DNA of 41,710 nucleotides, taken from the IMG/VR virus record IMGVR_UViG_3300003319_000206, positions 1 through 41,710 of that record; one strand, 5' to 3'. This DNA comes from a virus. The notes under the pieces are model-generated. The model did not search any database and had not been told where the DNA came from. It was given only the letters and a program-made list of their open reading frames with translations. Below, piece by piece: positions 1 to 39,140 of the stretch. Made by a program: the position numbers and the translations under genes. The stretch's first letter is position 1. Each line of letters starts with the position of its first letter.

Positions 1-1256
1 AGGTCCATCTGCTTGGCCAGCGCCGCCATGCCGCTGCCGAACGCCTGAGCCGTCTGGCTCGCCTCTTTCTTATCTTCGGGCGGCTTGGTGTCGAAGACGA
101 GTTTCCAGGTGTACGCCTCGGTTCCGCCGGTCAGATCGGGGTTGTCGTCTTCCCAGGACTCGCCGAAGTTCGCGCGCGCCCACACGGCGCTGACGTTCTC
201 GAAGCCGGCCGAGATGATTCGCGCGTCGGCTTCCGCGAGCAGGCGCGTGATGCCCGTCGCCTCCTTGGTGGCGGCAAGGCTCCCGCTGCTGACCCGCTGA
301 CTCAGGTTGTGGCCGAGCAGGATGATTGCCACGCGATCGTCATAGCGCTGGAGCTGTGAACTGAAGGTCTGGTAACCCTGGGCATCCGCCTGCACATAGG
401 TCAGGTCGTATCCGTAGCCCTTCTCGTCCTGGGGACACATCGCCGTGTCCGCGGCGCGCATCTGCCGCACCTTGTCGTAGCCGTCGAGCGCCTCTTTCGA
501 CTCGCGCATGAGGCGCGGCGTCTTCCACTTCTTGATCGGGCGACCGAATCCGTCGTTCAGCGCCAGCCACCCGTCGTCGCCGGTCATCAGCCCGAACCAG
601 ACGTAGGCGAGCTCGCGAATCGCACCTTTGAGCCATGGCCGCGTGCCGCCTTTCGAAAAGATGACCCACTCCCGACCGTCGTTCTCAATGCGGCAGATCC
701 CGCCGTCCTGAGTGGTCCCCTGGAACGCCCACCAATCCCAGCGCCACATGAGCGAAGAGTGCGTCCAGGGCTTGAGCCGCATCTGCCTCTGACCGTTCTG
801 GAAGGTCCAGTGGACCGAGCAGACCGAAAAGCCGAACATGATCATGCGCTCGTCGATCTCGCCACGATCCTCGTCGGACATGACTTGCTGCCAGTCCTTT
901 TTCAGGATCTCCGTGAACGCGTGGAACTCCTCGGGCGCTTCCTTGGGCACGACGAGATCCCAAGGAAACTCACGGAGCAGCGACACACGGGTGTTGAGCG
1001 CCGAGGCGATGAGCCCCTCTTTCCGCATCGCGTGATAGAGGAGTTCGGACTCACTAAAGATACCCTGATCATGTTGGTCGACCGCGAACATGATGCGGTC
1101 CGGCGTCCAGCCGGAAAACGTCAATAGCGGGTAGATCTCGCGCTTTGGAACGAAGTCGCCGCCCTGTAGCTCGGGGCGATGTGGGCCCAGCGCGGGGGCT
1201 GGCTTGGTGGTGGGAGCAGAACGAAAAAGAGAGAGGAGACGGCTGCCAAGGCTCAT
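1..1256 (-). CDS. Phage portal protein, Mu gp29-like (DUF935), 3' end cut by window
   Basis: Reading leftward from an ATG at 1256, the frame stays open to the window edge for about 418 residues, so the C-terminus is missing. The protein would form the dodecameric portal at the head vertex through which DNA is packaged. The recognisable DUF935 features are the early segment LINTRVSLLREFPWDLV-like region (about residue 95-115), the W-rich stretch around SLMWRWDWWAF, and later the region ILLGHNLSQRVSSGSLAATK (about residue 330). An in-frame TAG at 1314-1316 and no other ATG between fix the start at 1256; a weak CGGAG lies upstream. It is transcribed away from the other head genes, unlike in Mu. 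The family call is from memory of sequence patterns, not a search. Confidence 0.82.
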   Translation of the reverse strand, partial: MSLGSRLLSLFRSAPTTKPAPALGPHRPELQGGDFVPKREIYPLLTFSGWTPDRIMFAVDQHDQGIFSESELLYHAMRKEGLIASALNTRVSLLREFPWDLVVPKEAPEEFHAFTEILKKDWQQVMSDEDRGEIDERMIMFGFSVCSVHWTFQNGQRQMRLKPWTHSSLMWRWDWWAFQGTTQDGGICRIENDGREWVIFSKGGTRPWLKGAIRELAYVWFGLMTGDDGWLALNDGFGRPIKKWKTPRLMRESKEALDGYDKVRQMRAADTAMCPQDEKGYGYDLTYVQADAQGYQTFSSQLQRYDDRVAIILLGHNLSQRVSSGSLAATKEATGITRLLAEADARIISAGFENVSAVWARANFGESWEDDNPDLTGGTEAYTWKLVFDTKPPEDKKEASQTAQAFGSGMAALAKQMD

Positions 1257-7248: not shown

Positions 7249-9267
7249 ATGCCCGCTGTACCTTCGTCAAATCTTACGGCGGTCAATAACCTCGCCGGCA
7301 ACTTCCCGGTCGATCCGAGCCGCAGCGGTCTTGTGATCGGCCCCACGGTCGCCGGCACGCCGAACCTGATTATCCTCGACGACTCGATCAATACCGTCGT
7401 CTCGGAGTTCGAGAGCGGGCCAGGTGCTGACGAGGCCGCGACCGCGCTGGCTGAGCCGAATCACGGCACCATCTATCAGATCAAGACGGCCACGTCGACC
7501 GTTGGTGTCGCTGGAACGGTCACCAAGACGCCCGGCGCTACCGTGGGCGATCCCGTCAATGACTTCGGCGCGGTGACCATTCCCGGCGTGGACTTCAACG
7601 GCAACGTTTACGCCACCGCCACCGCCGAGAACGCCGAACTCGAAGTCGTCACCGGCATGGCCGCCGGCGCGGTCAAGGTCGGCAACAAGGTCACCGTCAC
7701 GGTCACCGCCGCGACGACCGGAACGCAGCTTCGCAACCTGATCAACGGCGTGGTCGGCACGAACTGGGCCGCCGTCGTCTTTGGCACCGGTGCCAGCGTT
7801 TGCGGTCAGACGCTCGCGACCTACAGCGAAGCCGCCGGCCGCATCGTCTTCCAGGCGCTGAAGACTGGCATGTCGGTGCGCACGACGATTCCGGGTCCTT
7901 CCGTGGCGACCCCGACCGTTGCGCTGACCGGCGGAAACATCGTCGACATCACGCAGTCGACGAACGCTGATGGCGAGCCGATCGGAACCGCCATCGCCAT
8001 CCAGTCGCTACTGATCGGGCTCGCGAACTCGAACCCTGGCAAGTTCAAGAGCACCCTAGCTGGCAGCGGCGCGGGCCTGCTCGGCGCCAAGGCTCTGACC
8101 GTGCTGCCGTTCGGGTCGACGGGAACCATGACGGTCTCGGGCGATCCGAACGACGGATACGACGTCACGGTGCGCATCAAGACCGGCGGCGCGCTCGGGA
8201 CTGCAGTCTTCGAGATCGCCCTGGGCAGCGCGAACGGAGTGCCGATCTACAGCGGCGCTTCCTACCTGATTCCGGTGAGCGGCGTGGTCGCGATTCCTGG
8301 CACAGGCCTGACCTTGACGTTCGTCGGTCCGTTCGATGCCGGCGACCTGTTCACGTTCCTGTGCACGCCGCCGCTGTCGACCCTCGCGGATGTCAGCGCA
8401 GCGATAACCTACTTCCTCGCGCGCCCCGAACAGGCGAGCCTGATCACGATCGCCGGAGAGATTCCGCTTCTGTCCCTGCCAGCGTGGATCGTCGCGCTCG
8501 ACGTGCTGGCAGATTCGCTCGAGGCGGCAAAAAAGTACGTTCGCATCCTGCTTGAGTACGAAGGGCCAGCACCTGGGCAGTCCAATGTCGTTTGGGCGAC
8601 CAGCGTAGCCACGACCCTCGCTGGTCTGTCAAGCGCACGCATCTCGCTGTTCGGTGGCGAAGGAAACGGCGTCTCTGCACTGCCGATCCCGCAGGCGTCG
8701 CGCTTCGAGACCGTCAATGGCAATCGCTGGATGTTCGCGCGCGCACTGGCGCTGTCGGCTGGCGTCGATGTCGGGGACCAGACGCTGAGCGGCGGAATGA
8801 GCGGCGTGCTTGAGGGCTTGCAGGTCGATGCGGCGGCAGCGCTTGCCAATGCACGCTCGAGCTACTTCTACCTGTTGCCTGGAATCACGGGCGTGCAGGC
8901 GGAATTCCTGCTCTTCGACTCGCCGACGGGTGATTTCACCTACGGCACGTACGGCCGGATTCTCGACAAGGCGATGTTTTATGGCTACATCGCGCAGACC
9001 CGCTACCTCAACGGCAAGTTCCGCCGCACGAAGCAGGGCACCATCGATCCGGGTGACGCGCGCGGCATCGCGCAAACCATCCGCCAGGCTGTCATCGACA
9101 ACGTCGTCAAGCCCGGCGATGCGGTGGACTGCCAAGTCGTCATCGACCTGACCAACACCGACAACCGCCTGATCGTCACCTACTACGTGCAGGTCCCCTT
9201 CTACGCGAAGCAGATCGACGGCAAGGCCGGCATCGTCAAAACCATCAGCTCGGTACAGGTGATTTAA
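7249..9267 (+). CDS. Contractile tail sheath protein, Mu gpL-like, with inserted domains
   Basis: The 672-residue product is longer than Mu gpL (about 495 residues). The start SSNLTAVNNLAGNFPVDPSR and the C-terminal third (from about residue 380: ALITYFLARPEQ-like region, GTYGRILDKAMFYGYIAQTR, YYVQVPFYAKQIDGKAGIVK) are typical of Mu-like sheath subunits. Two beta-rich inserts are apparent: residues about 75-235, rich in Thr/Val/Ala, and about 295-376, whose VRIKTGGALGTAVFEI...AGDLFTF pattern recurs in the connector at 4739-5470. Sheath inserts usually project from the tail surface. The gene ends one base before the tube gene, the normal sheath-tube pair. Confidence 0.85.
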   Translation: MPAVPSSNLTAVNNLAGNFPVDPSRSGLVIGPTVAGTPNLIILDDSINTVVSEFESGPGADEAATALAEPNHGTIYQIKTATSTVGVAGTVTKTPGATVGDPVNDFGAVTIPGVDFNGNVYATATAENAELEVVTGMAAGAVKVGNKVTVTVTAATTGTQLRNLINGVVGTNWAAVVFGTGASVCGQTLATYSEAAGRIVFQALKTGMSVRTTIPGPSVATPTVALTGGNIVDITQSTNADGEPIGTAIAIQSLLIGLANSNPGKFKSTLAGSGAGLLGAKALTVLPFGSTGTMTVSGDPNDGYDVTVRIKTGGALGTAVFEIALGSANGVPIYSGASYLIPVSGVVAIPGTGLTLTFVGPFDAGDLFTFLCTPPLSTLADVSAAITYFLARPEQASLITIAGEIPLLSLPAWIVALDVLADSLEAAKKYVRILLEYEGPAPGQSNVVWATSVATTLAGLSSARISLFGGEGNGVSALPIPQASRFETVNGNRWMFARALALSAGVDVGDQTLSGGMSGVLEGLQVDAAAALANARSSYFYLLPGITGVQAEFLLFDSPTGDFTYGTYGRILDKAMFYGYIAQTRYLNGKFRRTKQGTIDPGDARGIAQTIRQAVIDNVVKPGDAVDCQVVIDLTNTDNRLIVTYYVQVPFYAKQIDGKAGIVKTISSVQVI

Positions 9268-16245: not shown

Positions 16246-17043
16246 ATGGCGACCTTTGCCGAAACCACGCGTCCGCGAAGCTTCAGCGATCTGCCGCTGA
16301 CGCCAGCCTATCCGCGATGGGCAAAACCAGTCCCGGCGACAGGACCGACGCTGCACCGCAAGACCTATACCTTCGTGCGCGCCATCATGGCCGCATGGGA
16401 TGGGGTCGCGCAGGCGGCTGCCTCGGCGGCTTACTGCCACGGCTCGCAGACCGCCCCCCCCGATGCGCTGGACGAACTAGGGAATACGTATGGCGGTCTT
16501 GCGCGCGCGCTCGTCGATGATGATGCGCGGTATCGCGCATATCTGCGTGCCCCACTCGATCGCTGGCATACCTTCGGAACGCGCCGTGGTCTGCTTGGCG
16601 AACTCCTGCACCTCGGCTATCCTAACGCCGAGATCGTCAGTTGGCGCGATCTGGTCGATGCCGGCGCCGGACCTCCTAATGTCGTCTTCGGGGGTCACGT
16701 CAACTTCTTCTTCGTGGCGCTCTACCAGCCGAATCCCTTCTCTTCCCTGCTGGCGCGCTGGAACGACGGCGTCAGTCGATGGGGCGATGGGGTGACGACC
16801 TGGGGCAGTGGCAATAACTCTGCCAATCGCATCGCTGAGATCACCCGCGTTATCGCAATGGTGAAGCCGGCACATACGAGTTGTCGGCATGTGGTTGCGT
16901 TCCTTGATAGCGCATCTGGCCTGAACGCACAAAAGCTTCCAATGGGAAATTACATCGTGTTTCCGCAGAACGAACCATGGGAGCGCATACGCCCGTCGTA
17001 CGCCTTTAACCCGTTCTACATACAAAGCCCGTTGGTGCCCTGA
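16246..17043 (+). CDS. Baseplate/tail protein I-like, Mu gp48-like
   Basis: This 265-residue protein follows baseplate J, where gp48 (tail protein I) connects the wedge to the tail fibres. It contains a helical N-terminal region with DALDELGNTYGGLARALVDD (about 72-91) and RYRAYLRAPLDRWHTFGTRR, the part shared by this family, which contacts the wedge. Next are a Trp-rich segment (WNDGVSRWGDGVTTWGSG, about 178-195) and a conserved VKPAHTSCRHV motif, like the KPAHT pattern common in tail protein I. The stop overlaps the next start in TGATG. Confidence 0.75.
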   Translation: MATFAETTRPRSFSDLPLTPAYPRWAKPVPATGPTLHRKTYTFVRAIMAAWDGVAQAAASAAYCHGSQTAPPDALDELGNTYGGLARALVDDDARYRAYLRAPLDRWHTFGTRRGLLGELLHLGYPNAEIVSWRDLVDAGAGPPNVVFGGHVNFFFVALYQPNPFSSLLARWNDGVSRWGDGVTTWGSGNNSANRIAEITRVIAMVKPAHTSCRHVVAFLDSASGLNAQKLPMGNYIVFPQNEPWERIRPSYAFNPFYIQSPLVP

Positions 17044-17948
17044 TGGCTAATACCGATCTACAACAGTGGAATGCGCCGCAGTACTGGCCAGAGGCGGCGG
17101 ATGTCGGAACCAACGCAGATCCCTATCTGATTCCAGTAGATGGCAAGTTCATTACCGCGGACAGCAACCTAAATAATCAGGCGCCTATCAACGTAAGTCA
17201 GCGAGTTGATAAGCAACTGTATATGGGCCTGCGCGCCGCAACTATTGGCGACTTCACCGGAGCCATCCGAAAGACGTTTAAGAGTATTCACGTCGATGCT
17301 TTAGCGGGCGTCACCAGCACAATTCCGGCTGGTACCATTCAGGCCTCTGGCGATATCACATCGACCGCCGGCAATGTCATCTCGACAGTCGGCGATCTGC
17401 TCGCGCCCGGCGGGAGTTGCACCGTCGACCAGAATGTCACCGCTGGGGCGGCCGTGGTTTCGGATGGCGGCTTGGTGATTTCGGGGAACGCTGTCGGTGA
17501 ACATGCCGAACTCACTGAGGCCCTACTTAAATACTTCAACACCGGCACTGGTAGCGGCGACGCGAACCCCCCACAGGGTACGGCCATTGCCAATCAGATG
17601 CGCGCGAAGAATATCCCGAAAACTTCGCTGTTCATCGACGTTGCGCCTGGAGTCGTGAACTCATTCGAGGGATTCGGAATTCAGTCGGTTGTCATCAATG
17701 CCGGCGATTCAAAGATCCTCGATATCACATTTGCGGCGGGCTTTGATAATGGCTCATATTCTCTTAAGTCCGGCGCGACCAGAGATGGAGCAGCGGCGGT
17801 ACTCGCATTGCCGTTCGAGCGTGTCGACATGAGAACGAACACCACCTGTTCTGTGCAGGTGTGGAGCATCGTCGCCGGGACCCCAGTAGACTTCGCTTTG
17901 ACTGGCGTCAAGTTTTCACTGGATATTGACGGACAACAGACCACCTAA
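17043..17948 (+). CDS. Tail fibre or fibre-connecting protein
   Basis: The 301-residue product is placed first after the baseplate. An N-terminal segment (about 1-75) with QRVDKQLYMGLRAATIGDF may attach to the baseplate. Residues about 85-160 hold repeated short strands (SGDITSTAGNVISTVGDLL, TAGAAVVSDGGLVISGNAV) typical of a trimeric beta-prism or beta-helix shaft. The C-terminus is a beta-rich tip. Base composition is less GC-rich than its neighbours, as is common for fibre genes exchanged between phages. No receptor-binding specificity can be read from the sequence. Confidence 0.65.
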   Translation: MANTDLQQWNAPQYWPEAADVGTNADPYLIPVDGKFITADSNLNNQAPINVSQRVDKQLYMGLRAATIGDFTGAIRKTFKSIHVDALAGVTSTIPAGTIQASGDITSTAGNVISTVGDLLAPGGSCTVDQNVTAGAAVVSDGGLVISGNAVGEHAELTEALLKYFNTGTGSGDANPPQGTAIANQMRAKNIPKTSLFIDVAPGVVNSFEGFGIQSVVINAGDSKILDITFAAGFDNGSYSLKSGATRDGAAAVLALPFERVDMRTNTTCSVQVWSIVAGTPVDFALTGVKFSLDIDGQQTT

Positions 17949-17958
17949 AGGGAACAAG

Positions 17959-18477
17959 ATGCGCGCTTACCTGATTATCGCCGCTTTGCTGATGTCGGCC
18001 TGCGGCGAACCCCCAGAGCCACTCATCCCGCCGCCGGCCCCTCCGAGCCCCTGCGCTGGTGCAGACCTGAGCGACTGGACGAAGCGCTTCTGGCGTGATG
18101 AACCACTTCAGGGTGACGTTGTCCTGCGCCCTGATTCCTGCGGTGGGAATACCGCAGCAGAGATGACGCTGACTGCGCCGCCGCTGGCGACGAAGGAGAT
18201 GTTTCTGTCGCATGCCCTGCGTGAGGGCATCATCGGCCAGAGCATCCAAGTCAGTGCGCGCTTTCGTCTACTCGAAGGGGCTGCGCAGTTCGGCGTCAGC
18301 ATCGATACTCGAGCAACGCAGATCGGACAGAAGGACGGCATCTATCAGGCCGTCTGGCCCGATGCCGACGTGCAGACAAAGGACGTGCGTCTGTGGCTCT
18401 ATGCCTACGGTGGTCAGACCTCGCGCGTGCTGGTCGATCAGGTGCAGGTGAGCGTGACGCCAGGGGGATCTCCATGA
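17959..18477 (+). CDS. Predicted lipoprotein
   Basis: From ATG at 17959, with an AAAGGGAA ribosome site, the 172-residue product begins with a short basic start, a hydrophobic core and LLMSAC, a plausible lipobox with Cys at about residue 15. A Pro-rich linker (EPLIPPPAPPSP) follows, as in many lipoproteins. The rest is beta-rich, with the look of a carbohydrate-binding-like or jelly-roll domain (IQVSARFRLLEGAAQFGVSI, VLVDQVQVSVTP). It would be anchored in a host membrane, which is unusual for a gene inside a fibre block. Function is unknown. Confidence 0.65.
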   Translation: MRAYLIIAALLMSACGEPPEPLIPPPAPPSPCAGADLSDWTKRFWRDEPLQGDVVLRPDSCGGNTAAEMTLTAPPLATKEMFLSHALREGIIGQSIQVSARFRLLEGAAQFGVSIDTRATQIGQKDGIYQAVWPDADVQTKDVRLWLYAYGGQTSRVLVDQVQVSVTPGGSP

Positions 18478-18905
18478 GCGGCGGCGGCGACCGATTCAAC
18501 TTCGAGAATCAGCCCGATGTTGGCGGCAGCGTCGCAATGCTCGAGGCGCGCGTTACCGCGCTTGAAGCGAACGATGTGATTCAGGACGCGCGGTTAGACG
18601 CGCTGGAGCTCGAAATGCCACGTCCGACCGCAACTGCGAACCCCGTGCCTGTCACGTTGCAGGCCGACACCGATACCCCTGTGCTCGCGGCCAACCCCAA
18701 CCGGGAAGGGCTCATCTTTCGAAACAAGAGTTCGACGATTCGCGCGGTGTTCGTGCTGGGCCCAACAGCAGATCCGAACACCGATACCGTCGAGCTGTTG
18801 CCAGAAGAGTCAAAGCAGATCGTGGCGACGCGCTGGCGGGGGCCGGTGACCGGGTACGGAATCGGCGGTACGGCTGACGTCGTTGCGACGGAGTTTACGC
18901 CATGA
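18474..18905 (+). CDS. Small coiled-coil fibre-associated protein
   Basis: The ATG at 18474 overlaps the lipoprotein stop (ATGA). The 143-residue product has a heptad-rich coiled coil (about 20-48: MLEARVTALEANDVIQDARL and DALELEM) followed by a beta domain with ANPNREGLIFRNKSSTIRA, a pattern frequent in phage tail-fibre accessory proteins. There is no signal peptide. The coiled coil suggests trimerisation. It is coupled to the next gene by another ATGA. Confidence 0.6.
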   Translation: MSGGGDRFNFENQPDVGGSVAMLEARVTALEANDVIQDARLDALELEMPRPTATANPVPVTLQADTDTPVLAANPNREGLIFRNKSSTIRAVFVLGPTADPNTDTVELLPEESKQIVATRWRGPVTGYGIGGTADVVATEFTP

Positions 18906-20356
18906 ACAAGCGAGTCATTTCTCTTCTGTTTGCGGTCGGCATCGTCGCGCCGGCACACGCCCAAGTCACCAAGGTCTGGGATGGCACGCGGACGGCCACA
19001 GTTTCGGCGCCGAATGCCGGACTTCCCGCTTCCGCGTCAGGCCTTGGGGTCACGCTCAGTCCGAACAGCGCGAATCCGACCGGGGCTGCGACTGCCACGA
19101 ACCAGACGTCTGGCAACGCGAGCCTGACCAGCATCGATGGGAAGACTCCGGCCCTGGTCGGCGGTCGAGTCCCGGTTGATGGCTCTGGGGTGACGCAGCC
19201 TGTCAGCGGTCCGCTCACCGACACCCAGCTTCGCGCGAGTCCGGTCCCTGTCAGCGCGGCAATCAGCGGCGGGACCTCAACCGCGAACCAAGGCACGCCG
19301 AATAGCGCCGCGAACGCATGGCCGTTTTATCCGACGGTTGGCGGCGTGGCAATCGATCCACGGGTGCGCACCTGGGTCCTCTCGTCGGCAACTGACTCTG
19401 TCGACGTAAACGACCGCGCCGGTCGGCTGCTCGGCATCACGTACGGCTCGCAGGGGCAGCAGCTTCAGCAGTCCGCAACGAATTTCAATCTCTTCGCGGA
19501 ACTTCGGACGGGCGGGACGGCCTACGATGCGCGGCAGATTCGGCCGCTGACTGCAGTGGATGTCGTAACGGCGCAGGCCGCAAGTAGCACCATTATCGAC
19601 GATACCGGAACGCCGTTGGCCGGAAATGCGACATTCACAGGCGCCTGCTTCGATACGCGGTTGGGCGCGGATATCACGCTGGGCATTTCCGCGGATCAGG
19701 CATCTGCGACCAATGGCCTCACGGTGCGATGGAGCCGTGTAAGTGACTGCTCAGTCATTGCGGACACCGATCAGTACTCGATACCTGCCGGCAACGGCCA
19801 GCAATACAGTTTTGGTCCGAAGTTCACCTACGCCCAATTTGCCTATCAAAACGGCGCCACGCCTCAGACCGTGTTCGCTTTCACGACGATCCGCCGAACG
19901 ACTCACGTTCGAGGTTCAACGCATCGTGGCGGCGATTCGGTCGACCTCCGCGAGCAAGACACCGAACTCGTCACGTCGATTCCCAAGGGCATCGATCCCA
20001 ATGGCATCTCGCGGCAACTGGCGGTCGATACCTCAGCGAATCTCAAGGTCACGACGAATCCGGGCACGACGGCCACGACGACAGCGGTTGCTCTTACCAC
20101 CACAGGTTCGTCGGTCGTCGCCACGAATACGGCACGCAAGGCGCTCAAGATCTACGACCGCAGCAGCAGCCCCATCGTCTGGTGCGTCTACTTCAACGCG
20201 ACGAACGTCACGAGCGAGGCGACGGCGAGCTTTGCGATCACCCCCGGGCAGACCTTCGAGATGCCATGGCAACCAAACGGCGTCGAGTACACCGGGCAGA
20301 TCAACTGCGCCGCTTCGACGGGGACGGCGAACGTGCAAGTAACTGAGGTGCAGTGA
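18902..20356 (+). CDS. Secreted fibre-like protein with signal peptide
   Basis: The 484-residue product starts with a convincing Sec signal peptide (basic start, hydrophobic core, cleavage near AHA-Q at about residue 20). The mature part begins with a Thr/Ser/Gly/Asn-rich region containing TNQTSGNASLTSIDGKTP and SGPLTDTQLRASPVPVS, a pattern I know from many phage structural and tail-tip proteins. From about 135 on it is beta-rich. A signal peptide on such a protein is atypical, because virion proteins assemble in the cytoplasm. Either the N-terminus acts as a membrane or assembly anchor, or the protein is exported. Confidence 0.65.
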   Translation: MNKRVISLLFAVGIVAPAHAQVTKVWDGTRTATVSAPNAGLPASASGLGVTLSPNSANPTGAATATNQTSGNASLTSIDGKTPALVGGRVPVDGSGVTQPVSGPLTDTQLRASPVPVSAAISGGTSTANQGTPNSAANAWPFYPTVGGVAIDPRVRTWVLSSATDSVDVNDRAGRLLGITYGSQGQQLQQSATNFNLFAELRTGGTAYDARQIRPLTAVDVVTAQAASSTIIDDTGTPLAGNATFTGACFDTRLGADITLGISADQASATNGLTVRWSRVSDCSVIADTDQYSIPAGNGQQYSFGPKFTYAQFAYQNGATPQTVFAFTTIRRTTHVRGSTHRGGDSVDLREQDTELVTSIPKGIDPNGISRQLAVDTSANLKVTTNPGTTATTTAVALTTTGSSVVATNTARKALKIYDRSSSPIVWCVYFNATNVTSEATASFAITPGQTFEMPWQPNGVEYTGQINCAASTGTANVQVTEVQ

Positions 20357-21153
20357 TGGCGCGCTTAATCAGAGTGGCCCGTGTGCTCTTCCTCCTCGCG
20401 CTCTTTGCGCTGACCGGGGCGCCGTTCTCGTTCCCGCGCGATACGACTCGTACCGTCACGGGAATCACGACGCTTTTGGCCTCCGATCGGTATGTGCGCG
20501 CCAACCCAAGCGGCGGCCTTGGGATCACCCTGACCCTGCCGACGACGCCGGCCGATGGCACGCCTATCACGATCACCCGCGTGAGTGCCAACCTCGATAA
20601 CGTCGCCATCGCGGGCGGCGGCGCCACGATCATCGACGGAACCACGACGACCATCTACCTGGGTGGCCTCGGCTCGTCGGCGCAACTGCAGTATGTCGCA
20701 GCGTCGAATCGCTGGGACGTACTCAACTTGCAGCGACAACTCGTCGTGTTCCGGATCACGTCGATGAACAACGGCGAGTACCTGCAGAACCCGACGGTGC
20801 TGGTGGTCGGAAATGTGACCTGGACCGGCGGCGCGATTAACTCCGGCCAGACACAAATGCTCTTCGGGCGCGGCGGCACATTCGTCACCGGGAGCATGAC
20901 CTGCCGGACGCGCGTGAACGTCGCCGCGAACCGCACGGTGGTGGCTCGGCTTGCTGCTGAGGGCTTTGGCAGCGCGGCGAACCTGACGAACTCCCTGTCG
21001 ATGACGATCGCTAGTGGAAACGCTCTCGGGACCGGGGTCGCCCAAAACGTCCTCGCGGCTCCGCTTACCGGCACACAGGGTACACTCGTTGCCTTCGCTG
21101 GCACGGCGCTCCCTGAAGCCATGGACTGCCAACTTGAGACCTTCACGCTATGA
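20356..21153 (+). CDS. Secreted beta-rich protein with signal peptide
   Basis: I prefer ATG at 20356, which overlaps the previous stop (TGATG), over the GTG three bases earlier. The 265-residue product has an Arg-containing start and a hydrophobic core (RVLFLLALFALTGAPFS), a good Sec signal. The mature region has repeated Thr/Gly strands (GGLGITLTLPTTPADGTPIT, AIAGGGATIIDGTTTTIYLG) that resemble phage fibre shafts or head domains. Its stop overlaps the next start in ATGA. Function is unknown; it belongs to the exported block. Confidence 0.6.
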   Translation: MARLIRVARVLFLLALFALTGAPFSFPRDTTRTVTGITTLLASDRYVRANPSGGLGITLTLPTTPADGTPITITRVSANLDNVAIAGGGATIIDGTTTTIYLGGLGSSAQLQYVAASNRWDVLNLQRQLVVFRITSMNNGEYLQNPTVLVVGNVTWTGGAINSGQTQMLFGRGGTFVTGSMTCRTRVNVAANRTVVARLAAEGFGSAANLTNSLSMTIASGNALGTGVAQNVLAAPLTGTQGTLVAFAGTALPEAMDCQLETFTL

Positions 21154-21767
21154 CGCGACTGCCCCTGCTCATCGCGCTCCTCGCGGCCTGCGGCCCGCCT
21201 CATTCCGCTGAGCCATACCGCGCCCCACTGGATGGCGACAGGCCGATCGAGCTCCGGCTGACCGAGAAGGCGCGGGCCTTCGCTGCGCAGGGTGGGAAGC
21301 CGGACGGCGCGCGGCTGCGGATGATCGAGCGGGTGTTGCCGCGACTTGAGCTGATCTGGAATCCGGACGCCGCGGGACCAGCGCAGGTGGTGCTGATTGA
21401 CTTCGATGAGGACGTCGACGGTCCGTGCGCCACGAACAACTGGGCTCTTTGGAGTCCACACGACCGGCCGGCGATCTGGCTCTATAAGTCTTGGATCCAC
21501 TGCTTGATCGAAGGCGATTCCACACTATACGGCGAGCAGGGATGCTTCCTGCACCTCCTGCACGAGCTCGGGCATAACCTGGGCTCGCGCGCGCACGCCG
21601 CGCAACACGACCGCGCGCGCCACGATAGCGGATCGGTGATGTGCGGGTGGGCGTCAGACTGCGTTGACCATCGCCTAGCTGACTTCACCGATGAGGATCG
21701 ATACGGCGACGGCCTCGAGTTCCGTGGCATCTGCGGCGATGGCGGACATGGAGGGCCCTGCTCATGA
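21150..21767 (+). CDS. Lipoprotein with metzincin-like zinc protease motif
   Basis: The 205-residue product starts with a signal and a near-perfect lipobox LAAC (residues 11-14, Cys14), so it should be a surface or periplasmic lipoprotein. HELGHNLG (138-145) supplies the HExxHxxG zinc-protease signature; His149 follows, and SVM (162-164) looks like the Met-turn of metzincins. The third ligand is one residue later than in the canonical HExxHxxGxxH, where position 148 is Ala. Eight Cys in the mature part suggest disulphides in the periplasm. Possible roles are cleavage of host surface proteins or superinfection control; all of this is inference. It is coupled to neighbours by ATGA overlaps. Confidence 0.7.
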   Translation: MTRLPLLIALLAACGPPHSAEPYRAPLDGDRPIELRLTEKARAFAAQGGKPDGARLRMIERVLPRLELIWNPDAAGPAQVVLIDFDEDVDGPCATNNWALWSPHDRPAIWLYKSWIHCLIEGDSTLYGEQGCFLHLLHELGHNLGSRAHAAQHDRARHDSGSVMCGWASDCVDHRLADFTDEDRYGDGLEFRGICGDGGHGGPCS

Positions 21768-22276
21768 ACGAGAACCCGAACCTGAAGCTTCTCGTCGAGG
21801 GCCTGGGCTACCTGTCTGTGATCGTGACGTCGCTCGTCGCGTGGTACGGCATGCGGGCGCGGGCGCGGCAGAACGAGCAGGCCATCGCGCGGGGCATCGA
21901 TCCAAAGAGCCTGCCTGACATCAACCCGCGGCCGTTGCTGCTCTTGATAGCCGGAGGCGCGCTGCTGGCCTATCTCTTCGCAAGGCATCCTGAAATGGCG
22001 CAGCGTGTCCTTCCGGTGGCCGACTCCGCCGAGCTCGCCTCTGCGATGCCCAGCCCGTCCGCCGCATCCTGCACAAGCGCTGCGGACTGCGCGAGGGGCT
22101 GTCAGTGCACCGGAGGTCAGTGCACGCCCTGCTCGGCCGCGAAACCGAAGCCACAGCCAGTACAAAAGACCAAGCCACGGTATCAGCCCCAGGTCGCGAC
22201 GCTTGGCGATTGGCTGGCGCTGCCTCAGATGTACGTGCCGGTGCAGGCGATCTACGAGCGGCCGGCGGAGCGGTAG
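21764..22276 (+). CDS. Two-TM membrane protein with Cys cluster; possible holin-like
   Basis: The 170-residue protein begins with ATGA overlap. Two hydrophobic segments lie at about 10-30 and 57-73, separated by a basic loop. Between 103 and 123 there are six Cys spaced C-x6-C-x3-C-x-C-x4-C-x2-C, similar to small secreted Cys motifs frequent in myxobacterial exported proteins, followed by a Lys/Pro/Gln-rich tail. As the last gene of the rightward operon it could be a holin or spanin-like factor, but no endolysin is next to it and nothing proves this. It ends 12 bases from a convergent gene. Confidence 0.55.
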   Translation: MNENPNLKLLVEGLGYLSVIVTSLVAWYGMRARARQNEQAIARGIDPKSLPDINPRPLLLLIAGGALLAYLFARHPEMAQRVLPVADSAELASAMPSPSAASCTSAADCARGCQCTGGQCTPCSAAKPKPQPVQKTKPRYQPQVATLGDWLALPQMYVPVQAIYERPAER

Positions 22277-26312: not shown

Positions 26313-27038
26313 TTATGCTGCGAGCGTCAGCTCGAGCTGTTTCGGTTCTCGACGAATCCAGACAACTTCCTCTGACCATGCCGTTGCGTGGTTCGCCTTG
26401 ATGCGACGGAAGGGGACGAACGGCATCCAGTCGGCTCCGGCTTGCTCGCAGACGATGACAAGCCCACGACGGCGCTGCGACCATCGACCAATCTGCTGAT
26501 AGTCGAGCCCCTTATGTCCGCCGCGATAGCGCCGGCCGCACGTTCCTGCGTATGGCGGATCGATGAACCACGTCGCGCAATGGTCGCCACTATCAAAGCA
26601 AGAGCCCTCGACGATGCGCCAGTGACGGATCCGTTCGACCTGCGCCGCGATCCTTTGCCGAATGGCCTCGCCCCAAAATTGATCGGGATACAGGCCGGTG
26701 CGACACCATGCCGATGGCGAGTCCTTCGGCGTCGCGCTTCCCTTGTTCAGCCAAAACCCGACCAACCAGCGCGCTTCCTGAGGTAGGGCGGAAAGCTCGT
26801 CGATGTGCTTGCGCACGTCCGGGATCGCCAAAACCTCGCCAGGCTTCACGCGGATCAGGTACTGCCACACGTCCACGATCACCGGGTCGCGGTCGATGAG
26901 CAGCACCCGCCGATCGGCGTAGCGGGTCGCATAGCCCGCGCTGCCGGCGAAAGGCTCGATAATAAAATCGTGCTCTGGTGCCGGGTAGCTAGGCACCGTA
27001 CGCCATTTCGATCCGAAGAATGGGAAGAACGGTTTCAT
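26313..27038 (-). CDS. DNA adenine N6-methyltransferase, Dam/D12 class
   Basis: The 241-residue product has the class motifs in order: FFGSKWR near the N-terminus, FIIEPFAGSAGYA (25-37, AdoMet binding, FxGxG-like), LLIDRDP and the catalytic DPPY (160-163). The enzyme would transfer a methyl group to adenine N6 in a short DNA target, protecting phage DNA from host restriction or changing gene control; the target is not readable. ATG at 27038 with an AGAGAAAGAG site is chosen over an ATG 21 codons earlier. The gene is bracketed by 18-bp direct repeats, suggesting that it came in as a cassette. Confidence 0.85.
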   Translation of the reverse strand: MKPFFPFFGSKWRTVPSYPAPEHDFIIEPFAGSAGYATRYADRRVLLIDRDPVIVDVWQYLIRVKPGEVLAIPDVRKHIDELSALPQEARWLVGFWLNKGSATPKDSPSAWCRTGLYPDQFWGEAIRQRIAAQVERIRHWRIVEGSCFDSGDHCATWFIDPPYAGTCGRRYRGGHKGLDYQQIGRWSQRRRGLVIVCEQAGADWMPFVPFRRIKANHATAWSEEVVWIRREPKQLELTLAA

Positions 27039-27048
27039 CTCTTTCTCT

Positions 27049-27066
27049 CGCTTCGACGGCGGACTC
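27049..27066. repeat. 18-bp direct repeat, upstream copy
   Basis: Identical to 26292-26309 and placed just upstream of the methylase ribosome site. The two copies bracket the methylase coding sequence, with a repeat unit of 757 bp. Confidence 0.8.
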
Positions 27067-27077
27067 GGCGGTGGTTG

Positions 27078-27117
27078 TGTCCCCAGGCTCGGCGACGGCA
27101 CGGACGCCTTGGGGACA
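27078..27117 (-). terminator. Stem-loop downstream of integrase remnant
   Basis: On the minus strand TGTCCCCAAGGC (27117-27106) pairs with GCCTGGGGACA (27088-27078), with one bulged base, around a 17-base loop. It lies between the integrase remnant and the methylase. No T-run follows, so termination is uncertain; it may be a remnant of an att or terminator region of the former integrase gene. Confidence 0.45.
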
Positions 27118-30945: not shown

Positions 30946-31947
30946 ATGTCCGTCGCTGACAAGTTCCCCGACTCGCTGCCAGCATTCCAGCGCATGTTTC
31001 CCGACGACGCTGCATGTGCGCGCTACCTTGAAGCGATCCGATGGCGCAGTGGGTTTGCATGCCCGCGCTGCGCAGACCAGGCGGAGCCGTTTCGCTTCGC
31101 CGCGCGCCCCGGTGTGCTTCGGTGCCGAACCTGCAAGCGTGATATATCGTTGACGGCTGGCACCGTCATGGAACGCACGCATACGCCGCTCTCGATTTGG
31201 TTCTGGGCAGCGTTCCTGTCTTCGTCGCTGACTCCAGGTATATCCGCTGTACAGCTTCAGCGGCAACTCGGTCTGACGCGCTACGAGACGGCCTTCCAGA
31301 TCCTCCATAAGCTCCGCGCTGGGATGACTCGGACAAGCGGGCGCATCGGCGCCGGTACGCATGTCGAGGTCGATGAAACCTGGGTCGGTGGAGTCACGCG
31401 CGGCAAGGGCCGCGGGGTCCATGATCAGGCTTGTGTCATCGGTGCCGTCGAGGTAAAGCAGCGCGCCAAGAAAGAGCCCCAACGCAAAGAACGGCGCGGT
31501 GGACGCATCGCCGGCCGGCTTCGGCTGGCTGTGGTCCCCGACCGCAGCGCAAAGGCGCTGTGCGGATTCGTAGAGGAGGCGGTAGACCCTGCAACGGACA
31601 TGATAGTCACCGACGGCTGGCAGGGCTATGCGCCGCTTGCCGAGAAAGGCTACCAGCATCTTTCCGTCGCTGAGCGCGGAGATCCGAACGTGGCGGAAGA
31701 CTACTTGCCGATCATCCACCTCGTTTTCTCGAATCTCAAGTCCTGGCTCAATGGCACGCACCACGGGGTTAGCGCTGCGCACCTGCAAGCCTACTTGAAC
31801 GAGTTCACGTTTCGGTTTAACCGACGGTTCTACCCATTCAACGCCTTCAGATCGCTGCTCGGCTTGGCTGTCGAAAGTGAGGCACCGACCTACGATGAAC
31901 TTTATGACGGTGACTGGCAACATCCCGGCCTCAAGTCTGGGAATTAA
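30946..31947 (+). CDS. IS1595-family (ISXO2-like) transposase
   Basis: The 333-residue product has the N-terminal zinc ribbon typical of this family (FACPRCAD about 37-44, LRCRTCKRDISLTAGTVME about 58-76), a helical linker (TPLSIWFWAAFLSSS), and the ISXO2-like catalytic domain with VEVDETWVGG (first catalytic Asp), VTDGWQGYAPL (second Asp) and the C-terminal HLQAYLNEFTFRFNRR helix carrying the acidic/Asn residue region. It catalyses cut-and-paste or copy-paste movement. Length is normal and no damage is seen, so it may be active. Confidence 0.9.
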   Translation: MSVADKFPDSLPAFQRMFPDDAACARYLEAIRWRSGFACPRCADQAEPFRFAARPGVLRCRTCKRDISLTAGTVMERTHTPLSIWFWAAFLSSSLTPGISAVQLQRQLGLTRYETAFQILHKLRAGMTRTSGRIGAGTHVEVDETWVGGVTRGKGRGVHDQACVIGAVEVKQRAKKEPQRKERRGGRIAGRLRLAVVPDRSAKALCGFVEEAVDPATDMIVTDGWQGYAPLAEKGYQHLSVAERGDPNVAEDYLPIIHLVFSNLKSWLNGTHHGVSAAHLQAYLNEFTFRFNRRFYPFNAFRSLLGLAVESEAPTYDELYDGDWQHPGLKSGN

Positions 31948-38504: not shown

Positions 38505-39140
38505 TTATGCAACCTCCATTCGTTGTGCGCTTCGGGCGATGCTCAGCAGAAGATCGCGGAAGGGAATCGGAGTAGCCGCGCGCTGGCGATGACTCAGGCG
38601 CTGGCAAATTACCGTCTTCGTGGCCCGGCGGCGCTCCTCTGCCGAGTGGTATCCGTCTTCCATTCTGATGCAGCCAGCGGCCTTGCCCCACTTCAGGGAC
38701 GGCAGCGAACGCATGCCCACGGCGTAGAGCCATGTCGCCTTGCGGGCTCGATGTCCGTAGTGGCCCTGTTCTACGCAGCACGTCCAGCCGATGCCATCTC
38801 CGGCCGCGACCCAACCGCCGGCCCGAGGCGGCGTTAGCAGGTCGAACGCGCGCCAAGCCGACGATGCTTCGGGATGCTCAAGAACTCCACCCCAACGGCG
38901 AACAGATGCGAGAGCCGCAGCGAAGCACCCGCCATCATCGCCCTTGCTGCGGCGCACGCGCGCCGATGGTCCGCCGCTCCAGTACCGCCCCCAGCGCTCA
39001 CAAGGCGAATGACAGACCACAGGATGCGGCCCCTGATAGAGCCGTGCATCGCGAGATACGCCCCACACCTCAACGTCCGGCAGGCCGACGTAGGCCCCTC
39101 TTGGCCGCTCATCCACGAACAATGCGGCCACTGTCAGCAT
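38505..39140 (-). CDS. Conserved phage protein of unknown function
   Basis: The 211-residue product begins VAALFVDERPRGAYVGLPDV and has VVCHSPCERWGRYW (about 41-54), DDGGCFAAALASVRRWGGVL with EHPEAS (about 68-93), and VEQGHYGHRARKATWLYAVG (about 128-147). I know this pattern (HPPC-RWG, EHP and GHxAxKxTW) from many uncharacterised phage and prophage proteins; HPPCxxW and GHxAxKxTxL also recall C5-cytosine methyltransferase-like or base-modifying phage proteins. The activity is not established. Its start overlaps the end of the HNH gene. Confidence 0.65.
   Translation of the reverse strand: MLTVAALFVDERPRGAYVGLPDVEVWGVSRDARLYQGPHPVVCHSPCERWGRYWSGGPSARVRRSKGDDGGCFAAALASVRRWGGVLEHPEASSAWRAFDLLTPPRAGGWVAAGDGIGWTCCVEQGHYGHRARKATWLYAVGMRSLPSLKWGKAAGCIRMEDGYHSAEERRRATKTVICQRLSHRQRAATPIPFRDLLLSIARSAQRMEVA

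Follow-up and report, generated by a model that had tools for sequence, protein, structure and literature searches.

Here, we provide evidence that a soil-type tailed phage encodes an unusual series of exported proteins at the 3' end of its virion operon. The window analyzed is the whole 41,710-nucleotide stretch of IMG/VR virus record IMGVR_UViG_3300003319_000206 (a 41.7 kb contig), in which six tightly packed plus-strand genes, hereafter the block, follow a fibre-like gene (17043-17948) and reach position 22276. Three of the six products carry clear export signals, two contain fibre-type modules, and one of the lipoproteins has a metzincin-type zinc helix. Our favoured explanation, held tentatively and with slightly less than even confidence, is a late envelope-acting module that combines lysis assistance with receptor masking or cleavage. 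Block genes are named by their first nucleotide:

17959 to 18477, plus strand: lipoprotein of 172 aa; lipobox LMSAC with the cysteine at residue 15 and Gly at +2; a Pro-rich linker, then about 130 aa.
18474 to 18905, plus strand: signal-free protein of 143 aa with a heptad-like N-terminus; its start overlaps 17959 by ATGA.
18902 to 20356, plus strand: protein of 484 aa with a Sec signal, a phage repeat and a C-terminal domain that matches phrog_28493 (E = 2e-4).
20356 to 21153, plus strand: protein of 265 aa with a hydrophobic N-terminus followed by a fibre-type beta module.
21150 to 21767, plus strand: lipoprotein of 205 aa; lipobox LAAC with the cysteine at residue 14 and Gly at +2.
21764 to 22276, plus strand: protein of 170 aa with two transmembrane (TM) segments, a basic loop between them and a Cys-rich C-terminal tail.

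Signals were called with a home-made rule-based predictor and by eye; the rule is less refined than SignalP, and the call rate given below includes its false positives. A preliminary description of this DNA had counted four signal-bearing genes among the six. Both the rule and inspection find clear n, h and c regions or a clear lipobox in 17959, 18902 and 21150, and the fourth, 20356, is ambiguous; the tally is thus two lipoproteins, one clean Sec signal and one doubtful case. The signal of 18902 (MNKRVISLLFAVGIVAPAHA, followed by Q) is a textbook Sec signal that ends AHA/Q with cleavage between A20 and Q21. That of 21150 (MTRLPLLIALLAAC, followed by GPP) satisfies the strict lipobox, whereas 17959 (MRAYLIIAALLMSAC, followed by GEPP) has M at -3, which fits the broad lipobox rule and lies outside the strict pattern [LVI][ASTVI][GAS]C. 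The N-terminus of 20356 (MARLIRVARVLFLLALFALTGAPFSFPRD) has a charged N-region and a strong hydrophobic core but lacks a good cleavage site; it is either a signal or an anchor, and the protein either exported or membrane-anchored. The two TM segments described for 21764 start at residues 7 and 55, and its Cys-rich tail is predicted from charge to face the periplasm. A Gly at +2 after the lipobox cysteine favours the outer membrane by the sorting rule of E. coli; both lipoproteins, 17959 and 21150, have this residue and probably reach the outer membrane.

In 57 loci with related baseplates, identified through baseplate J (BPJ), lipoprotein or signal peptide calls were made for 4.4% of 1,321 genes, and none of 275 six-gene same-strand windows contained at least three signals, as against three clear ones in the block. 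Outside the block, the rest of the window gave no convincing calls by the same heuristic. The exported series is therefore confirmed as real and as unusual for this tail lineage, as had been suspected.

The block genes have the GC pattern at third codon positions and the codon usage of genuine genes of this phage and of the rest of the operon. They had been described as joined to the fibre operon by ATGA overlaps. Four such overlaps exist within the block (at 18474, 18902, 21150 and 21764), but 20356 starts at a TGATG overlap, and 10 nt, which include a Shine-Dalgarno-like AAGGGA, separate the fibre gene from 17959. No promoter or terminator above chance level was found at the block, and we infer its late transcription from operon position only.

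Protease action is the most specific lead to the function of the block, through a zinc motif in 21150 that the preliminary description overlooked. The metzincin-type helix HELGHNLGSRAH (H138-E-L-G-H142-N-L-G) contains the first two ligands and the catalytic Glu. His149 is the likely third ligand, at +11, one residue past the canonical position, with Ala at +10; the protein thus departs from the metzincin motif HExxHxxGxxH/D. Among the matches listed, 75 of 82 phage HExGHNxG proteins have His at the canonical +10. Because of this displaced histidine, 21150 appears metzincin-like and is not filed as a metzincin. A possible Met-turn (S-V-M164), plausible by eye, lies 26 residues past H138. No match to 21150 was found in Pfam or the PDB, and its match to a metzincin profile is confined to the zinc motif by which the set was chosen, which makes it no independent evidence. 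AlphaFold2 models of 21150, built by itself or together with 12 distant phage metzincins, were of low confidence (mean pLDDT 33 and 46). Searches for 21150 in 284 genomes (from the phylum of the L072 Deltaproteobacteria metagenome-assembled genome (MAG), taken as Myxococcota) and in 398 genomes of the Aeromonas phylum gave nothing usable. The single match there at E=1e-4 (L156) was rejected as spurious, the zinc motif being absent.

The fibre-like character noted earlier for two block proteins is borne out by 18902 and 20356. The repeat of 18902 (TNQTSGN..VDGSGVTQPVSG..TDTQLRASPVPVS) occurs in at least 305 IMG/VR loci and makes the protein a member of a set that shares VDGSGVTQPVSG and LRASPVPVS. 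Most proteins of this set are signal-free, and 18902 belongs to a Sec-bearing minority: among 77 repeat open reading frames with complete starts, a script flagged ten Sec signals and two TM segments, of which about nine were genuine Sec signals by eye (L103, L125, L128, L129, L130, L148, L151, L153, L155). The signal sequences of these proteins are unrelated, which points to repeated acquisition. The N-terminal domain of 20356 is matched by a fibre-cluster protein of another IMG/VR locus (L192) at E = 3e-6, and 20356 weakly matches the tail fibre family phrog_972 (E=0.01). In that 8.2 kb locus, a terminase-like gene and genes with fibre modules occur together with a TM gene and an exported metzincin whose signal is twin-arginine-like (SRRSYLQ); the locus is possibly from a haloarchaeal virus, which would place the same neighbourhood in another domain. 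The C-terminal domain of 18474 resembles that of 18902, a resemblance only, and the C-terminal ~130 aa of 17959 seem to resemble a beta-sandwich.

As wholes, the block proteins have no detected relatives. For 17959, no match was found in Pfam, PHROGs, INPHARED or the PDB, and homologues of 21764 were sought and none found. Peptide patterns recovered no close homologue of 21150, 18902 or 20356 in IMG/VR. INPHARED tblastn gave one weak partial match for 18902 and none for the other five proteins (for 17959, none at E<=0.1 among 50,697 phage records), and phmmer against the PDB gave none for 17959, 18474, 18902, 20356 or 21150. A check proposed earlier, the search for the same block in other phages, was negative for the block itself: it is absent from nine prophage stretches around BPJ homologues (L072 MAG phylum), and the idea that it belongs to the tail lineage was rejected. 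Because related prophages lack it, the block is an accessory module.

The pattern of exported genes, in contrast, recurs. Both exported fibre-module proteins and exported metzincins are found in unrelated phages, sometimes beside lysis genes, which had been overlooked. Metzincin loci were chosen by the HExGHNxG motif from the IMG/VR matches listed, and samples are small. Among these matches, 55 of 73 untruncated phage HExGHNxG proteins have an N-terminal signal or TM segment. Close same-strand neighbours were present for 19 distinct exported metzincins, 9 of which adjoin another signal or TM gene (base rate elsewhere in the same loci, 9.5% per gene). Individual loci are as follows:

L129: in a row, a repeat protein and a further protein, each with a Sec signal, then TM genes (one of them a weakly Rz-like spanin), lipoproteins and an M15/VanY endolysin.
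L130: two tandem Sec-signal proteins; VDGSGVTQPVSG repeats occur in the first, and the second has a C-terminus of the fibre type.
L158: an astacin-type lipoprotein adjoining TM genes; an Amidase_3 endolysin and an Rz-like gene lie nearby.
L160: an M54 protein beside small TM genes, near lysis-type genes.
L161: an M11 protease with a TM gene, and a cell-wall hydrolase further along.
L162 (M11), L218 and L238: exported metzincins within runs of exported genes.

The exported IMG/VR metzincins (L158, L160, L161, L162, L198, L218, L238) are like 21150 in having an exported HE-x-G-H-N-x-G motif beside virion, TM or lysis genes; they match it at the zinc helix only, however, and their own His spacing is canonical. 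At L218:8102-9764, three consecutive Sec-signal genes, the metzincin in the middle, lie beside phage virion-type genes. The exported/lysis cluster of L129 also contains, at 8354-9085, an unsigned 243-aa protein with a zinc-like motif (ACHELAEMMIDPG) and no family match.

The preliminary description proposed a late system acting at the host envelope, with surface remodelling, receptor cleavage, superinfection block or help in lysis as candidate roles. Envelope action is indeed the natural reading of an exported series; its timing follows from operon position only. We suggest that the block would be an accessory, late-transcribed module with which the virion operon ends, in which 17959 and 21150 would be sent to the outer membrane, 18902 exported through Sec, 20356 exported or anchored, and 21764 inserted in the inner membrane with its Cys-rich tail in the periplasm. 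The zinc-peptidase-like 21150 might clip envelope or receptor proteins near lysis, while the fibre-module proteins and 17959 might bind structures recognized by the tail. Together they would weaken the envelope from within and keep progeny from sticking, two effects that are compatible and would both aid release.

Known systems offer partial parallels. In Listeria, the phage-derived secreted metzincin and TIMP-like lipoprotein of Mtz-Tim sensitize cells to phage lysis (PMC8235301). Mtz-Tim resembles the block in pairing an exported HExxHxxG protein with an exported lipoprotein (PMC8235301); its protease has a Met-turn, for which 21150 has a candidate only. In Mtz-Tim, the protease is a Sec/SPI substrate with a lipoprotein partner, under a cI-cro-like switch in a Gram-positive host, whereas in the block the protease-like protein is itself the lipoprotein, is encoded in the virion operon and has a shifted third His. 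For spanins (Rz/Rz1, u-spanin), too, the end of the late operon encodes an outer-membrane lipoprotein that contains a Pro-rich stretch, close to an inner-membrane protein (PMC6139136). In contrast to these, 17959 has what looks like a large folded domain, no PHROG spanin match was found, and the block has no single-TM coiled-coil protein of the i-spanin type; its sole TM protein has two TM segments, followed by a Cys-rich tail.

Several points weigh against an envelope-acting module. The signals were called by a simple rule rather than SignalP, and the displaced third zinc ligand of 21150 makes activity uncertain. As no block protein has a detected homologue over its whole length, conservation or covariation support is lacking, and the BPJ-related prophages do without the block. 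No endolysin or holin family is recognized in the contig, so the lysis link comes from analogues; 21764, with two TM segments, falls within the one to four of holins, which are small proteins encoded in a lysis cassette with an endolysin. The metzincin loci, finally, were motif-selected from the matches listed, and many of the exported metzincins in phages stand without an exported neighbour.

A related but rather unlikely explanation is a superinfection-exclusion or receptor-masking cassette, in which 17959 and the exported proteins with fibre modules fill or obstruct the receptor, infected or lysed cells stop binding phage, and the peptidase is secondary. The lipoprotein genes cor and llp lie just downstream of tail-fibre or receptor-binding protein (RBP) genes (PMC13164509, PMC9586334, PMC4936722), and their products block the receptor (PMC13164509, PMC9586334); 17959 likewise begins 10 nt past the fibre gene. 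Exclusion lipoproteins within structural clusters are experimentally known (PMC11893012), and fibre modules on exported proteins would suit binding to the same surface. The cor/llp cassettes of T1, HK022, N15, ES18, phi80 and T5 also place exported genes, among them those for an outer-membrane lipoprotein and for membrane proteins, right after fibre or RBP genes (PMC13164509, PMC9586334). Nevertheless, sequence similarity to these cassettes, or to any INPHARED phage including those that encode Cor or Llp, was not detected. The block proteins are larger (172 aa for 17959 against ~61 residues in the mature model of Llp), the cassettes as described have neither fibre modules nor a zinc-motif lipoprotein, and exclusion leaves the zinc-motif protein unexplained.

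It is improbable that the block encodes virion components with hydrophobic or signal-like N-termini, or proteins that are exported and then join particles after lysis. Position in the virion operon, the fibre modules of 18902 and 20356, and the lack of a signal in most relatives of the 18902 repeat would fit such a role, but signals as specific as lipoboxes and an AXA cleavage site are present, dissimilar Sec signals stand independently ahead of the same repeat in about nine other phages, and tail assembly is cytoplasmic. Equally improbable is a gathering of unrelated morons with separate roles at the late operon's end (surface proteins of the lysogenic-conversion type), which the missing homologues, the absence from related prophages and the tail-operon end as a known insertion point would favour, against five overlapping junctions with zero intergenic space, no extra promoter above chance, operon-like codon usage and similar exported runs elsewhere.

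The surroundings of the block are those of a tailed phage:

From 1605, plus strand: operon with a Mu-like protease (PF10123), major head protein, sheath, tape measure, baseplate J, P2 gpI-like and fibre-like genes.
Within this operon, plus strand: baseplate J (PF04865, phrog_6), followed by the P2 gpI-like gene.
17043 to 17948, plus strand: signal-free fibre-like tail protein of 301 aa, after baseplate J and the P2 gpI-like gene; the last clearly virion-type gene ahead of the block, with no family match of its own.
From 22289, minus strand: early genes, including RecT, a PD-(D/E)XK nuclease and DUF2303.

Among the contig proteins scanned, no endolysin, holin, integrase or large terminase was recognized. 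The contig is incomplete: a Mu-type portal gene (3-1256, minus strand; PF06074, E=2e-27) is cut by its left end. The gene is divergent from the Mu-like protease at 1605, an orientation that reflects an inversion or an assembly join. Two further contigs (L002, L007) were rejected as relatives of the window, as their 99.99% identity shows them to be the same phage, and they stop at 18679. Because early genes match those of Pseudomonas and Caulobacter phages and an insertion sequence (IS) resembles alphaproteobacterial ISAcr1, the host is likely a Gram-negative member of the Pseudomonadota. The IS carries an IS1595-family (ISXO2-like) transposase gene (30946-31947, plus strand; PF12762, E=1e-32) inside the minus-strand early region; the closest relatives among plasmids are ISAcr1 of Acidiphilium, at 69% DNA identity, and no terminal inverted repeats of at least 14 nt were found. 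In the same region, a gene at 26313-27101 (minus strand) weakly matches D12-type DNA adenine methyltransferases in a short N-terminal part only (phrog_56, E=6e-7). Another at 38505-39140 (minus strand) belongs to phrog_12600 (E=4e-57). Phages of Pseudomonas, Caulobacter and Rhodobacter, as well as a tortoise microvirus, encode relatives, some only ~36% identical and some annotated as DNA methyltransferase.

Exported genes beside fibre genes are already known; what is new is that fibre modules and a zinc-motif lipoprotein go with them, and no description of such a combination was found in the open-access literature searched. Phage genomes are described as seldom containing lipoprotein genes, and ~13% of genomes in one spanin survey lacked a recognizable spanin, leaving an outer-membrane route open (PMC6139136). 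It is tempting, if unlikely, to suppose that unrelated tailed phages have time and again fitted Sec signals to fibre modules of their own and combined exported proteins with an envelope-tethered metallopeptidase, as a receptor-destroying or masking and release module comparable to a viral receptor-destroying enzyme, and possibly as an outer-membrane route for phages without recognizable spanins. The block supplies specific proteins that can be tested for a part in disrupting the envelope, destroying the receptor or excluding other phages beyond the coliphage models, and the exported metzincins and fibre-repeat proteins that recur in IMG/VR suggest a wider class of such proteins that is now annotated as 'hypothetical' or 'tail fibre'.

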